Shown here one piece after another: positions 15,300-62,545 of a stretch of 64,000 nt of DNA. A model generated the notes under the pieces. The model had not been told where the DNA came from, ran no database searches, and saw nothing but the letters and a program-made list of their open reading frames with translations. This DNA is from Polytrichum commune. Its lineage: Eukaryota > Streptophyta > Polytrichopsida > Polytrichales > Polytrichaceae. Location: assembly GCA_950295325.1 (NCBI GenBank), contig OX485804.1, forward strand, positions 27,650,001 to 27,714,000. Reading direction: 5' to 3'. The position numbers and the translations under genes are program-made. How positions within the stretch are numbered: position 1 is the first letter of the stretch; each line of letters begins with the position of its first letter.

Positions 15300-16740
15300 T
15301 GATGATAATTATGGAGGATAGTAAGTTCCCCCGCCCCCCCCCCCCCCCCCTCACGAATTTTTTGGGGAGGTAGATTCGGGTGAGGGCAACCGCCCGTCCA
15401 GAAAATCCAAATTTTATGGACCCAACTGAAAATTGTTGCGCGCTCACCCAACTTCGAAAAAACCATTGCCCTTGCATTCTTGAAGGCCACTTATCCACAA
15501 ATCCCATATTGAGTGCACTTCACCTTCAAGGTCCAAAATCCAATATATATGTTCACTTCCATTGAGTAAATAAGCAATTGACTAGGATTTCCTTTCCAAA
15601 GTGAAACCGCCAATAAAGCATGTAATTAACTTGGAAGTCAAACATATTACAAAACCCTCATTAACACTGAGGTTATAATTTGTGTGACGTACCATTGAAA
15701 GGGTGTTTGTCATTTTAAAATGGAACTAAAATTAGTGATTTAATTTTAATATGTTAAATATTATAGTCTAGTTAATACCTTCTACTTTCACAAAGTACAC
15801 ATATGCATTTAAACTAATTAAGTGTGATTGAATGTAATTAAGTCTAATTAATCCTGATTAACCCCAATCAAATCAGAAAGTATGCTTATCATTATTTATA
15901 AGGCCCAATAAATCATAAATTATATTTACTGGAGTTAATTTCAGTAAATCATGATTAATTCCAGTAAGTATAATTTATGATTAATTAGGCTTAATTAATT
16001 TGGTGATTAATTCCAGTAAGTATAATTTATGATTTATTAGGCTTAATTAATTTGGTGATTAATTCCAGTAAGTATAATTTATGATTTATTAGGCTTAATT
16101 AATTTGGTGATTAATTCCAGTAAGTATAATTTATGATCAATTAGGCTTACTTAATTTGGTGAGCATGCTTTCTGATTTAATTGGAGTTAATTAGTATTAA
16201 TCAGGATTAATTAGACTTAATTACATTCAATCACACTTAATTAGTTTAAATGCATATGAATACTTTGTGAAAGTAGAAGGTATTAACTAGACTATAATAA
16301 TTTAGCATATTAAAATTAAGTCACTAATTTTAGTTCCATTTAAAATGACAAACACCCTTTCAATGGTATGTCACACAAATTATAACCTCGGTGTTAATGA
16401 GGGTTTTGTAATATGTTTGACTTCCAAGTTAATTACATGCTTTATTGGCGGTTTCACTTTGAAAAGGAAATCCCAATCAATTGCTTATTTACTCAATGGA
16501 AGTGAACATATATATTGGATTTTGGACCTTGAAGGTGAAGTGCACTCAATATGGTATTTGTGGATAAGTGGCCTTCAAGAATGCAAGGGCAATGGTTTTT
16601 TTTGAAGTCGGGCGGGTGGGCAGCAGTTTTTGGTCGGGTCCAAAAAATTTGGATTTTATGGATGGGGCGGCTGCCCCTGCTCGAATCTACCTCCCTCAAA
16701 AAGTTCATGGGGGGAGCATACTGTCCTCCGATAATTATGA
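15300..16740. mobile_element. Long foldback element F1, copy B
   Basis: The two halves are reverse complements over roughly 590 bp. Left blocks GATAATTATGGAGGATAGTA, GCATTCTTGAAGGCCACTTA, CACTTCACCTTCAAGGTCC and AAGCATGTAATTAACTTGGA all recur inverted and in reverse order on the right. The left arm carries a C17 tract (15334-15350) where the right arm has only a short G run. The centre (about 15890-16170) has a 52-bp unit once in the left arm and four times in the right. No ORF of interest. Copy A at 3195-5140 is homologous. Confidence 0.8.
15961..16168 (+). repeat. 52-bp tandem repeat, four units, in the foldback right arm
   Basis: CCAGTAAGTATAATTTATGA begins at 15961, 16013, 16065 and 16117, an exact 52-bp period. 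The unit includes TTAGGCTTAATTAATTTGG. An inverted single unit lies at about 15905-15945 in the left arm. Confidence 0.9.
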
Positions 16741-31150: not shown

Positions 31151-32646
31151 TATCGGTATAGTGGTAAGAAAGGGGATGAAATTAGAGACCCTAGCCAAAA
31201 ATAGCAACAAACTACCTTGATTTCAAGCTAGATTGAGAAGTTTTCCTTCTATTTGACTTCCAAGCATACTTGGCTCACTTAGACACCTCATCGGGAAAAT
31301 CCAAGAACTTGGAGCCGTAAGATTGGGAACTTCTATGTATTTTCAGCACCTCAAACATTATTTGATGTTGTAATCTTGGACACGGTGAATATTTAATGTG
31401 CCAATGCATAAATTATTTGAAGACAATTGGCATACACGATCACATAATATTTGAATTGTTACGTGACATCCTTAGTTACCATCATAACATTAGGTGTTCA
31501 ATCTTGAAGTCGAAGTCTATTCATAAAGAAAACAATTTCGTCATCCCACAGTTTATTTTCCACTTTGAACCTTGTCACCACTTAACATTATTCAACTGCA
31601 TGCTTGTATTCCATTCTATATGTAGCATTTGACATGGTCCTCCATGATCTTATTTACATGGGAAGAAACTTTTAAAATGAGAAGAAATTGATGCCGGTAT
31701 GAATAGTATGAAGATTGTGAATAGCGTCGGTATTTTAAGTGACTGGTGCTATGTATAGTATTTTTTAATGAATAATACCAAGATGAACAATATTTCTTGT
31801 GAACAATGCTAGGGTGAATAGTGAGTCATGTGAATAGTGCCAGGTGTATGACTCCACCCAAATTTCCAAGTGTCAACCTTAATGTATGAATAGTTAACAA
31901 TTATTTTTTCTTTGTTTAATGGCCTCTCAAAATATAATTGACATGTTCTAGGATCATGGAATTGACCCACATAGCTGAATAATGCTATGGATCTAAATGT
32001 CATTGGAATATTTTAATTCTTATGATAATAACTATGTCCGATCGCACAACATTCAACAATGCTCCTTTCTACAGGTCCACCTTCATTTCATGTAATGGGT
32101 TACATTTTTTTGGCCTTTCAATGTGACGGAGGACATCAAAAACTACCTTTCAAATGATGAGTCAAGAAAATCTTGATCTTGTACACAAAATTGAAGATTG
32201 ATTCAAATTCTTTCAAAAACAAATGTAGAGAAGTTTGAACTTCTTACAGTACTAGTCCAAACTAAGAACTTCTCGATTCCTCATGTTGCCCCATAGCTCA
32301 AATATTGCCCCCTAATCCATATTCTTTAACTATGTCTGCATAATGGTACTCGCATCAAGGCATCCAAAGTGTCCACCTTCAATGAAGATCGCAAGTAGCT
32401 CTTGATAGCAAATTTTCTTGAACCAAGTGCAATACTCACTACTATTGTACAAGTATAAAGTTGTGTTTGGCAAGCACACTAACTGCAAGTCAAAAATCTC
32501 CAACAAAAGTAATTTAATTTCAAACCAATTCTTTTGTTCAACTCTAGTCAGTGATCACATCCATTGGTGATCTCCCGGACTAGTTTGAGATTGTAAATTG
32601 GAATTCGACGTTGTACATATAGATCAATCTAGTATGAGATCATGTA
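31151..32646. other. Gene-free spacer with a degenerate GAATAGTG repeat at 31690-31850
   Basis: About eight imperfect copies of a (T)GAATAGTGCC/GAACAATG-like motif occur at 31690-31850. No gene recognised elsewhere in the stretch. Confidence 0.4.
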
Positions 32647-33620
32647 TGTAACGAACCTCTCACCGGTTTATCACCAACTTCCACACTAACATGTATCAAC
32701 CCAAAACAATCATAGACCAAGTAGGTCTTGGTTAAAGCTCAACCACCCGACCATAGGAGAGAGACTAAAGGTCCTCTCTCCTCCCCCGAACTTCTTCTTA
32801 TGCCGAAGCACTACTTTTACCTTCTATCTAAGTTACATATAGTAAAAGTATCATATTCATAGTTCTATCTTTTAGTTCTACTATGAATCTTCTATCTTTG
32901 GTTCTTCTAGAACCTTCTTCCATCTCTTATCTCAATCTCATTCTTCCAATTGGAATTGTCTAATTCCAACTAAATTCATCCATTCATTCTTCTAGTTGGA
33001 ATTGTCTAATTCCAACTAGATCTATCTATTCATTAAGAGTTGTCTAATTCCAATGAATAACATTCATCTTTCCAATTCTGGAGTGGTCCAACTCCAATGC
33101 ACCTCATCGAGAGTTGTCTAACTCATGTGCACGTGTTCTCAATATGGAATGGTCTAATTCCAATGCACTATATGCGGAGCTGTCTAACTCCAGTGCACAT
33201 GTTGTCAATCTGGAGTTGTCTAACTCCAATCCATCCATCCATCTTCAACTAGGAGTTGTCTAGCTCCCATCATCCTCCGCTTACACACTGGCACATGTGG
33301 TTAGAATATTCAATTATCCATCAATATTGGTAGTTACCTTACAATGACACTACCGTTGATGACTAGGTGTCCATACACCCAACCTCGTCATCATGGTATA
33401 CATTAGATATCACATTGTCAATTAGCGTTGAGGACGCCTCGTCGTCGTAGGATGGCAACTAGGTGTAGTTACTTTACAATATCATATTGTCAATTAGCAT
33501 CGTCGTTGAGGACGCCTCGTCGTCGTAGGATGACAACTAGGTGTAGTTACATTACAATGTACATCAAAGTCTCAACACAAACTCAAATTGGATTCAATTA
33601 GGTGTCACGGGGGTGTTACA
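32647..33620. mobile_element. LTR-like repeat L1, copy 1
   Basis: The 974-bp unit starts TGTAACGAACC and ends GGTGTTACA, so it has TG..CA ends with TGTAAC/GTTACA inverted termini. Read on the minus strand it begins TGTAACACCCCCGTGAC, the style of many plant LTRs. An inverted copy lies at 39839-40973. It includes a CGTCGTCGTAGGATGGCAAC-type duplicated block at 33425-33545 and the hairpin array at 32950-33270. No coding sequence and no clear 5-bp target duplication, so calling it a solo LTR is an inference. Confidence 0.6.
32950..33270. repeat. Array of nine small hairpin units
   Basis: A 16-nt palindromic unit of the form GGARTTGTCTAAYTCC recurs near 32951, 32996, 33037, 33080, 33111, 33147, 33176, 33212 and 33253. 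Each has a 6-bp stem and a GTCT loop, spaced 31-45 bp apart. Stem variants GGAATT/AATTCC and GGAGTT/AACTCC are mutually compensated. Confidence 0.85.
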
Positions 33621-39838: not shown

Positions 39839-40973
39839 TGTAACATCCACGTGGTAAAAATAAAGTCATTAATAACACTTATAAAATATCATCACATATT
39901 TTAATAATAGTAAAACCTACAGTTATTTAGTGACCCGAACGAGAGTCTATTGTTGTTTGAAGATACTCTTGAATACGGGAGATAGTGATGGGTTTCTCTC
40001 ATAGATTTGATGTGTAATGTAACTACACCTAGTTGTCATCCTACGACGACGAGGCGTCCTCAACGACGAGGCTAATTGACAATATGATATTGTAAAGTAA
40101 CTACACCTAGTTGCCATCCTACGACGACGAGGTGTCCTCAACGACAAGGCCAATTGACAATGTGATATCTAATGTATACCATGATGACGAGATTGGGTGT
40201 ATGGACACATAGTCATCAACGGTAGTATCATTGTAAGGTAACTACCAATATTGATGGATAATTGAATATTCTAACCACATGTGCTAGTGTGTAAGCGGAG
40301 GATGATGGGAGCTAGACAACTCCTAGTTGAAAATGGATGGATTGGAGTTAGACAACTCCATATTGACAACATGTGCACTGGAGTTAGACAGCTCCGCATA
40401 CAGTGCATTGGAATTAGACCATTCTATATTGAGAACACGTGCACATGAGTTAGACAACTCTCGATGAGGTGCATTGGAGTTGGACCACTCCATAATTGGA
40501 AAGATGAATGTTATTCATTGGAGTTAGACAATTCTTAATGAATAGATAGATCTAGTTGGAATTAGACAATTCCAACTAGAAGAATGAATGGATGAATTTA
40601 GTTGAAATTAGACAGTTCCAACTAGAATGAAGGATGGATGAATCCAATTGGAATTAGACAATTCCAATTGGAAGAATGAGATTGAGATAAGAGATGGAAG
40701 AAGGTTCTAGAAGAACCAAAGATAGAAGATTCATAGTAGAACTAAAAGATAGAGCTATGAATATGATACTTTTACTATATGTAAAGATAGAAGGTAAAAG
40801 TAGTGCTTCGGCATAAGAAGAAGCTCGGGGGAGGAGAGAGCACCTTTGGTCTCTCTCCTATGGTCGGGTGGTTGAGCTTTAACCGAGACCTACTTGGTCT
40901 ATGATTGTTTTGGGTTGATACGTGTTAGTGTGGAAGTTGGTAATAAACCGGTGAGAGGTTCGTTACATGATGT
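39839..40973. mobile_element. LTR-like repeat L1, copy 2 (inverted relative to copy 1)
   Basis: It begins TGTAACATCCACGTGG and ends GAGGTTCGTTACA. From 40012 onward it is the close reverse complement of 32647-33550. The first 170 bp diverge from copy 1. It contains the duplicated CATCCTACGACGACGAGG block and a ten-unit hairpin array (40310-40680). No clear target duplication. Confidence 0.6.
40310..40680. repeat. Array of about ten small hairpin units
   Basis: Units of the form GGARTTAGACAAYTCC recur along 370 bp, the reverse complement of the 32950-33270 array plus one extra unit near the distal end. Most stems are fully paired. Confidence 0.85.
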
Positions 40974-46154: not shown

Positions 46155-46474
46155 TGTTATGATACTACCGTCGATGACAAGGTGTCCATAGACCCAACCT
46201 CGTTGTCGAGGACGCCCAGTCGTTGTAAACGCCTAATTGTTGAGGACGCCTAGCCGTCGCAGACACTTCGTCGTCGTAGAATGGCAACTAGGTTCCGATA
46301 CGGGGCCCCATCATCCTGAGAGGTGGTGATGATCAAAGGCTTTAAATAGATACTGAGGTTGAGAGAGAAACCAATCGAAATCTCGGTCTTGCTCTCTAGT
46401 TCTCAAAAATTATATGATCTTGGTTGCGTGATATGCTTTTCATTTCGTATTCATTTCGTACCGATCTTGTAACA
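46155..46474 (+). repeat. 5' LTR of the copia element
   Basis: 320 bp, TGTTA...TAACA ends. It aligns along its length with 50587-50873 (GTCGATGAC, AGAATGGCAACTAGGTTCCG, GGTGGTGATGATCAAAG, CTCTCAAARATTATA). CGTTATTAGCACGAGGCTC follows directly and is a plausible primer-binding region of the CGTTATCAGCACGA type. Confidence 0.9.
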
Positions 46475-50184: not shown

Positions 50185-50873
50185 TGTTAGAGCATCCTCA
50201 GTCGGTCTAGGTAAAGCTCATTGCAAACCAAAACCTATCTTTTGACTGACCTAAAATTAGAAACTGAAATTACCATCATTAGAAGCACACCTAAATAAAC
50301 GTGAGATATTTCTCAAGAAAAAAGAATTGTAAAAATTTGACGTAGGTGAAATCCCTCATTGAAAACACCACATTTTCAAAATTTAGAGGGAGTGCACCAA
50401 ATCTTGCTTTAAAATGGAAAGATCCTCCCACACTCCCTCCAAATTTTTGACATTTAGAGGGAGTGTGGGAGGATCTGTCCATTTTAAGCAAGATTTGGTG
50501 CACTCCCTCTAAATTTTGAGCAATTTTAAGCAAGATAGGTCTTGGTTTGCAGTGAGCTTTACCTAGACCGACTGAGGATGCTCTTATGACACTACCGTCG
50601 ATGACTAGGTGTCCGTAGACCCAACCTCGTCGTCGAGGACGCCCAATCGTTGTAAACGCCTAGCTGTTGAAGACGCCTTGTCGTCGTAGAATGGCAACTA
50701 GGTTCCGGTACAGTGCCCCATCATCCTAGGAGGTGGTGATGATCAAAGACCTTAAATAGACACCGAGGTTGAAAGAGAAATCAATTTAACTCTCGGTCAT
50801 GCTCTCTAACTCTCAAAGATTATACGATCTTGCTTACGTGATATGCTTCTCATTTTGTACTCATTTTGTAACA
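50185..50873 (+). repeat. 3' LTR of the copia element, split by a MITE
   Basis: LTR bases are 50185-50189 (TGTTA) and 50587-50873, together 292 bp. Compared with the 5' LTR it lacks some of the GTCGCAGAC region and about 15 bp near the end. Confidence 0.9.
50190..50583. mobile_element. Palindromic Harbinger-like MITE in the 3' LTR
   Basis: The left GAGCATCCTCAGTCGGTCTA and right TAGACCGACTGAGGATGCTC are perfect inverted ends extending about 50 bp. TTA is duplicated at 50187-50189 and 50584-50586. The interior forms a second long hairpin: TTTAGAGGGAGTGCACCAAA pairs with TTTGGTGCACTCCCTCTAAA. 394 bp, non-coding. The 5' LTR preserves the empty site. Confidence 0.92.
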
Positions 50874-61546: not shown

Positions 61547-61819
61547 AAGAGGAAAACATAGTGAATCATATTAAAGCATGTAAATGTTTATTTTTAGATC
61601 ATTGGACTTGTGAAGTAGTAACAAAGACCCCAAATCAGTCGAGTGGAGTCAAGTTGGAATGAATCAACCATCAATCATGTAGGGAATTTAGTTTTTATTG
61701 AAACGTCCGGTTGACAACCATGGATGAAATTGGCAACGAATCAAATAAACTAGATGGAATTGTCATAATTGGATTGACTACGTACAACTTTAATGGAAGA
61801 TTGTATTATCGTCCATATG

Positions 61820-62545
61820 TGGCTTAGTCACTCCAATAATACTCCTTCGCTCGGCTCACATGAAATTTTGAAATACCATTGACCATGACATCCAATTGTT
61901 CAAAAATTACAACCAAAAACCTATGGCTTAGTCACTCCAATAATACTCACTAGCGCAACTCACATTAAATTTTGAAATACCATTGACCATGACATCCAAT
62001 TGTTCAAAAATTACAACCCAAAACCCGTGGCTTAGTCACTCCAATAATACTCACTAGCGCAACTCACATTAGATTTTGAAATACCATTGACCATGACATC
62101 CAATTGTTCAAAAATTACAACCCAAAACCTGTGGTTTAGTCACTCCAATAATACTCACTAGCGCAACTCACATTAAATTTTGAAATACCATTGACCATGA
62201 CATCCAATTGTTCAAAAATTACAACCCAAAACCTGTGGCTTAGTCACTCCAATAATACTCACTAGTGCGGCTCATGTGAAATTTTGAAATACCATTGACC
62301 ATGACATCCAATTGTTCAAAAATTACAACCCAAAACCTGTGGCTTAGTCACTCCAATAATACTCACTAGTGCGGCTCATGTGAAATTTTGAAATACCATT
62401 GACCATGACATCCAATTGTTCAAAAATTACAACCCAAAACCTGTGGCTTAGTCACTCCAATAATACTCACTAGTGCGGCTCATGTGAAATTTTGAAATAC
62501 CATTGACCATGACATCCAATTGTCCACATATTACAACCCAAAACA
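61820..62545 (+). repeat. 104-bp tandem array, seven units
   Basis: TGGCTTAGTCACTCCAATAA begins at 61820, 61924, 62028, 62132 (TGGTTTAG), 62236, 62340 and 62444, an exact 104-bp period. Units 2-4 share the variant GCGCAACTCACATTA; units 5-7 share GTGCGGCTCATGTGAAA. A weaker eighth unit (TCACTCCAATGATTGTCACC) lies at about 62650-62720. No ORF spans it. Confidence 0.97.

Follow-up and report, generated by a model that had tools for sequence, protein, structure and literature searches.

Short tandem repeats in the U3 region are found in LTR retrotransposons and retroviruses, for example in the tobacco element Tnt1, and a role for them in transcription has been proposed (PMC3601003, in the portion drawn on here). 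Repeat arrays in U3 occupy a usual site of a retrotransposon's on-switch. A different line of work concerns template switching, which reportedly gives rise to perfect stems, repairs them and leaves an enrichment of multibase matched changes (PMC8794818, likewise cited from a portion of the text). Our literature search, with most subscription journals outside its scope, returned no title or abstract opening that describes the unit motif discussed below or a palindrome array in U3. Neither palindromes nor hairpins turned up in a term look-up in PMC11656987.

The array analyzed here lies in a 64,000-nucleotide stretch of the moss Polytrichum commune (GCA_950295325.1, contig OX485804.1, positions 27,650,001 to 27,714,000), which is referred to as the window.

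An array of nine dyad-symmetric units

The array consists of nine 16-bp units (Table 1) separated by spacers of 14-30 bp. In the sense orientation the unit reads GGARTT-AGAC-AAYTCC, with a core of TT-AGAC-AA. Twenty sites in the window match the 16-mer with three or fewer mismatches, whereas shuffled sequences give 1.98 on average and never more than 6. The nine-unit palindrome array of the original prediction is therefore real. Its units are less uniform than was claimed, since three of the nine are exact and the other six carry one or two mismatches. Stem position 4 switches on both sides together in eight units, as proposed, and is mixed in the one at 33036. The loop is as nearly constant as described (GTCT on the plus strand in eight units, GTCC in one). 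The 6-bp stem was an underestimate for some units: the one at 32998 has a predicted stem of 13 bp, and in the predicted fold of the one at 33036 outer arms ATTCATT and AATGAAT pair beyond a bulge.

Table 1. Coordinates of the array, its units and the LTRs that carry such arrays in the window
Feature	Position	Strand	Basis
Array of nine dyad-symmetric units, sense core TT-AGAC-AA	32952..33267	-	sequence
Unit GGAATTAGACAATTCC, apparent hybrid of arms from two neighbouring array positions	32952..32967	-	
Unit with predicted 13-bp stem, outer arms TCTAGTT / AACTAGA	32998..33013	-	
Unit with mixed position 4/13 (plus strand: G with T)	33036..33051	-	
Unit with loop variant GTCC (plus strand), T-C mismatch beside loop	33080..33095	-	
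Unit with T-T at outermost of six pairs	33110..33125	-	
A-T type unit inside 66-bp repeat, T-C mismatch beside loop	33146..33161	-	
G-C type unit, T-G at second pair from loop	33176..33191	-	
Exact unit GGAGTTAGACAACTCC	33212..33227	-	
Unit with C-A mismatch at second pair from loop	33252..33267	-	
Solo LTR, 910 bp, TGTAA...TTACA ends	32647..33556	sense = -	similarity to most fetched relatives stops there
Target site duplication ATGTA, 5 bp, left	32642..32646	.	sequence
Target site duplication ATGTA, 5 bp, right	33557..33561	.	sequence
TATA-like CTATATG, presumed core promoter	32836..32842	-	sequence; also in L010
Second solo LTR, same family, opposite orientation; ten units at 40308-40665	40013..40967	+	

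TRF reports 46- and 66-bp repeats, so the units are not independent of one another. The apparent hybrid unit at 32952 is probably the product of the loss of one 46-bp repeat. This dependence, together with the few independent pair events that tree-based tests leave (see below), would suit an origin by chance or a simple tandem repeat without special symmetry. Such an origin is very improbable. It is already contradicted by the comparison with shuffled sequences, by the genome-wide count of the unit against its reversed control and by the slot-level permutation of its arms, as described below.

The LTR and the element that carries it

The location of the array in an LTR, proposed from the outset, is borne out by TG...CA ends, a 5-bp target duplication and a PBS-like sequence in relatives. 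Both LTR termini are found in 28 of 30 close copies, and under a strict rule 17 of these 28 have an identical 5-bp duplication. In two of the 28 (L002 and L024) the LTR's sense end is directly followed by TGGTATCAGAGC, which we take to be the initiator-Met tRNA primer site. The reading frame adjoining it in L002 matches Retrotrans_gag (1.9e-06). At L016, the other LTR of the same element, the adjoining frame matches Integrase_H2C2 (4e-21) and SH3_Tf2-1 (8e-25), and an rve match in this element (6.7e-05) is below its cut-off. From the gag and integrase domain matches, the carrier is a Ty3/gypsy retrotransposon whose LTR, in the window, reads in sense on the minus strand. It is perhaps a chromovirus, the Chromo match of the L016 frame (E 0.00076, 19.8 bits) being below the curated cut-off of 25.1.

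In the sense orientation, the window's array is located 110-425 bp upstream of the TATA-like motif. The same order is seen in the 955-bp LTR of L010, where CTATATG occurs at position 763, downstream of units that start at 296 to 638. The array thus probably lies in U3, the limits of the promoter and of U3 being drawn from motifs. Its position upstream of a TATA-like motif, in an LTR with a PBS-like sequence, gag and integrase, supports a reading of the array as a row of dyad-symmetric cis-elements that lies in U3 of a Ty3/gypsy LTR, has grown by tandem duplication and acts as DNA, with rare double or templated changes preserving part of its arm symmetry. We adopt this reading tentatively, at somewhat less than an even chance.

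Several other features of the window can be recorded here. The second solo LTR lies about 6.5 kb from the first and is flanked by a separate target duplication of 5 bp, which reads CATCA on the plus strand. A hairpin-forming stretch at 32752-32788 (GGAGAGAGGACC...TCTCTCTCC) is found downstream of the TATA-like motif in sense. Both LTRs contain a 78-bp tandem with the motif GAGGACGCC (33399-33558 and 40013-40168), and weaker relatives of this tandem occur in another repeated sequence (46157-46460 and 50584-50870). A 104-bp tandem repeat of seven copies with 95% matches spans 61818-62544, and an A+T-rich 52-bp tandem repeat of four copies with 97% matches spans 15952-16162.

Copies across the genome

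The exact unit pattern occurs at 643 places in the 408-Mb genome, and its reversed control at 1. Place-by-place positions cover the first 100 of the 643, all on C1. Among these listed matches, 51 of 51 C1 loci fetched for the exact unit are members of this LTR family, and the remaining listed C1 places fall in LTRs that had already been found by similarity. The match between unit and LTR at the 51 fetched loci supports the reading as DNA sites. The confinement of the C1 units examined, among the first 100 of 643, to these LTRs also counts against it, as it would be odd for a site read by a host factor. A host-wide motif was considered and is not supported by the listed C1 units, all of which are inside these LTRs (first 100 of 643).

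Thirty close LTR copies were collected, including the window's own two; apart from these two, identity to the query is 90-95%. Ten units are present in 25 of these copies, nine in 4 and eleven in 1. A further 35 LTR copies were found with a query taken from outside the array. Units are present in 31 of these flank-chosen loci (259 units in total), one of the 35 has two units only, and in four (L086, L091, L096 and L104) the fetched stretch contains no unit. The recurrence of units in 31 of 35 copies that were chosen without using them again supports the DNA-site reading.

Two families are seen among the LTR copies. Family A is young; family B is old, and most of its members align at around 65-85%. 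L036 has no match to the family A LTR and matches family B. Identity between the families (16 A and 11 B copies) is 0.85 for loops, 0.76 for units and 0.57 for spacers, where columns were labelled by unit hits, array spacers may be partly misaligned, and the location of slots by a core match with two or fewer mismatches biases their loop conservation upward. This comparison uses 27 of the 35 flank-chosen loci, leaving out L086, L089, L091, L096, L104, L113, L114 and L115. The claim that spacers drift faster than units thus holds between the two LTR families, and the conservation of the core between them favours DNA sites. In the 93 columns downstream of the array identity is 0.81, comparable to the units.

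Among the 30 young copies, the units show no better preservation than the sequence around them. The minor-letter fraction is 0.0146 for stems, 0.0162 for loops, 0.0093 for spacers and 0.0172 for the rest. The lack of excess conservation is as expected of dead copies; constraint, if any, acted in active lineages. Both this result and the conservation of the stretch after the array count against the DNA-site reading.

Array instability and inverted copies

The LTRs L016 and L002, which belong to one element, differ by 1 mismatch in 909 aligned bases and by one 46-bp gap, with ten versus nine units. Their near-identity and the 46-bp difference imply that the element moved recently and that the array is unstable. 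Array length therefore changes at or after insertion. Such a difference of one unit between otherwise nearly identical LTRs would be expected if the array were a functionless mutational by-product, in which hairpin-prone units multiply by slippage and unequal exchange, template switching on folded single strands makes and repairs their symmetric arms, and the LTR merely carries the result. This by-product reading is the strongest rival of the DNA-site reading, and we rate it as rather unlikely. It is opposed by the core TT-AGAC-AA, which is common to array positions with unrelated-looking spacers and to two LTR families.

Inverted units bear on the same question. Sense-oriented array spans from 110 loci, from which L057 and L065 were excluded beforehand, contain TAGACA 636 times and TGTCTA four times. 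Of the four TGTCTA matches, two fall beyond the array; the remaining two are unit copies that lie inverted within it. These copies lie around position 653 of L078 and around position 471 of L095, in sense-oriented coordinates. They probably arose by templated copying, and they are in keeping both with a by-product and, at 2 of 110 loci, with sites that act as DNA. The nearly constant orientation of the loop inside arrays (636 to 2) speaks against a by-product, although descent by tandem duplication could also explain it.

A possible further trace of templated change is seen in units 8-10. Rows with the right arm TTG at pairs 9-11 mostly have CAA on the left (41 rows); the old-type left arms TAG and AAG account for 3 rows each, and no one-step left arm occurs. 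This pattern fits a two-base templated change and is not proof of one. Slot-specific perfect arms and two-base changes matched on both sides resemble the multibase pattern that PMC8794818 describes in the portion cited, which likewise favours the by-product reading.

Stem shape and folding

Some stems are considerably longer than the core unit, reaching 12-13 bp. Long stems in family A include TCTAGTTGGAATT-AGAC-AATTCCAACTAGA and TCCAATTGGAATT-AGAC-AATTCCAATTGGA, family B has GTTGGAGTT-AGAC-AACTCCAAC, and the seventh array position is a bulged long stem. Different array positions have different arms, which nevertheless pair within their own unit. When the left and right arms of ten position types were re-dealt among slots, 0 of 20,000 permutations reached the observed pairing at positions 1-10; seven family-B types gave 0 of 20,000 and five family-A types alone gave 350 of 20,000, some of the position types probably being duplicates of others. 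The corresponding permutation of arms within copies treats copies as independent, and its significance is overstated. Units 8-10 show all four perfect combinations at pairs 9 and 11: TAG/CTA, CAA/TTG, CAG/CTG and, in a single copy, TAA/TTA.

Complementary arms specific to each slot and the four perfect haplotypes of units 8-10 would also be explained by an array of RNA hairpins. Its units, supplied by the 3' LTR, would reside in the untranslated 3' portion of the element's genomic RNA, and a protein such as Gag or a host factor would read the AGAC loop while the sequence of the stem remained free. We regard this reading, the next rival after the by-product, as unlikely.

Folding calculations point in both directions. 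The ten-unit array of L010 folds with a z of -8.13, compared to -1.26 and -3.03 for the flanking parts of this LTR, as expected for RNA hairpins. The part with -3.03 is the third of L010 that matches the hairpin stretch at 32752-32788. For the window's array, the z relative to shuffles is -6.57 for sense RNA, -6.46 for antisense RNA and -8.07 for sense single-stranded DNA. The equality of antisense and sense RNA counts against hairpins that function as RNA and in favour of DNA sites. Mismatches are also inherited at particular positions: C-A occurs in unit 1, T-C in both unit 4 and unit 6, and T-T at the end of unit 5. Their presence in at least four of ten positions is evidence against RNA hairpins, and their stable, position-specific inheritance is expected of degenerate half-sites in DNA. 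Two other searches weigh against the RNA reading. Positions 32600-33600 match no Rfam family near threshold (best E 0.69, far below gathering), and the loop complement TTGTCTAA is absent from two 1500-base 5' internal pieces and occurs once in a 3' piece.

Wobble pairs

Stems maintained as RNA can tolerate G-T cells (G-U in RNA) in preference to A-C cells. In pooled cells of unit pairs 1-6, G-T exceeds A-C by 458 to 255 and is ahead in all three copy sets, which would suit RNA and counts against the DNA-site reading. Most of this excess is contributed by two pairs, the second from the loop and the outermost, at which a few array positions inherited it, and this weakens its value for the RNA reading. 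At pair 4/13 the ratio is 23 to 31. For pairs 3-9 from the loop it is 162 to 130 by cells and 21 to 20 by columns, with 12 ties, and the parity by column supports DNA sites over RNA hairpins. Pair 9 of units 8-10 is more favourable to RNA, with G-T in 25 rows and A-C in 2, several of these rows being misaligned and the pair having been picked post hoc. The wobble evidence is mixed.

Covariation with relatedness controlled

Covariation was evaluated on trees of unit windows, with substitutions re-dealt along branches over all columns. The all-slot re-dealing test used 450 of 568 sequences, and the pair-wise and double-change and repair tests used all 568. Position u7 was omitted from all-slot tree tests owing to its bulge. 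Paired cells exceed the tree null in units 8-10 (2012 versus 1640, reached in 0 of 200 nulls) and in all slots (3467 versus 1816, 0 of 100). Stems are therefore kept better than random columns, a result that RNA hairpins would predict. Changes on both sides are not clearly above the null, at 44 versus 43 in units 8-10 and 484 versus 404 in all slots (20 of 100). Neither is the summed G, for which 116 of 200 nulls (units 8-10) and 8 of 100 (all slots) are at or above the observed value.

Among individual pairs, pair 3 is the only one to pass the family-wise 0.05 level (75 of 2000, all slots). Pairs 7 and 9 in all slots are nominal only (22 and 13 of 2000), as are pairs 9 and 11 in units 8-10 (27 and 78 of 4000). 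When the 30 close copies are taken out, 100 and 116 of 3000 nulls match or exceed the values for these last two pairs.

Double changes on internal branches, with column rates kept, number 4 in all slots versus 0.6 in the null (reached in 1 of 200) and 1 versus 0.2 in units 8-10. Repairs are not in excess, either in all slots (51 versus 47.4) or in units 8-10 (23 versus 18.8), which counts against RNA hairpins. On tip branches, breaks are above the null and repairs below it. Single copies decay without compensation, as the by-product reading would have it. What covariation can be seen comes down to a few ancestral double changes that were copied by duplication and transposition, and such changes, few as they are, easily mimic strong covariation.

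These results divide the proposal that the fold and not the linear sequence is kept. Arms pair better within units than between them and paired cells are above the tree null, in agreement with it. On the other side are a well-conserved linear core that includes the loop, the inherited mismatches, a single pair at the family-wise level and the lack of a repair excess. An excess of paired substitutions, whose absence was to speak against the proposal, is lacking for repairs and on tip branches and is present for internal double changes in all slots.

A candidate array of DNA control sites

Location in an LTR, the type of element, conservation of the core in two families, the 46-bp length change and position-specific symmetry are established. 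To these, the sequence adds a candidate role as binding sites. As DNA, the array would offer a series of binding sites upstream of the promoter of the element. A putative protein, probably a dimer, would read GAR...YTC about one helical turn apart around the fixed AGAC center. Binding to each unit may raise or tune transcription from the LTR, and several clustered sites would make this response robust to the loss of any single one. The symmetry of the outer arms beyond the core would stem from the birth of a unit or from occasional change, by inverted, templated copying during DNA synthesis, and would be dispensable for binding.

We know of no protein that binds the unit, which counts against this reading. 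Slot-specific arms of 8-13 bp are likewise unexplained by a simple dimer site. A heat-shock-element register in the A-type unit was considered and dropped, since GAA and TTC are out of register.

Another reading is a self-renewing hairpin array. In this arrangement, a row of units with identical loops and variable stems in U3 would be read by the element's own protein, as the 3' end of the RNA or as single-stranded cDNA, and its stems would be renewed by template switching during copying. We consider this combination distinctly unlikely.

Comparison with known systems

A dyad unit with position-specific arms that has been kept through a split into two families offers a natural series in which selection that keeps symmetry can be set against copying errors that make it. 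The array resembles U3 tandem repeats such as those of Tnt1, as far as the cited portion describes them, in that short repeats lie in U3, here presumed, upstream of a promoter. It differs from Tnt1-type repeats in its unit, a nearly perfect dyad whose complementary arms are specific to each slot and which is known here from sequence alone.

Arrays in plant Gypsy elements of the Retand type (PMC11963269, cited from a portion of the text) are similarly short, family-specific tandem arrays. Those arrays are found in the internal region between pol and the 3' LTR of a non-chromovirus lineage, whereas the present array belongs to the LTR itself, in an element whose chromodomain match is below threshold. 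Template-switch hairpins, as presented in part of PMC8794818, share perfect stems and apparent multibase matched changes with the units described here, which also include inverted copies. They have been described for microRNA and rRNA genes. In contrast, the units of the Polytrichum array form a repeated LTR motif.
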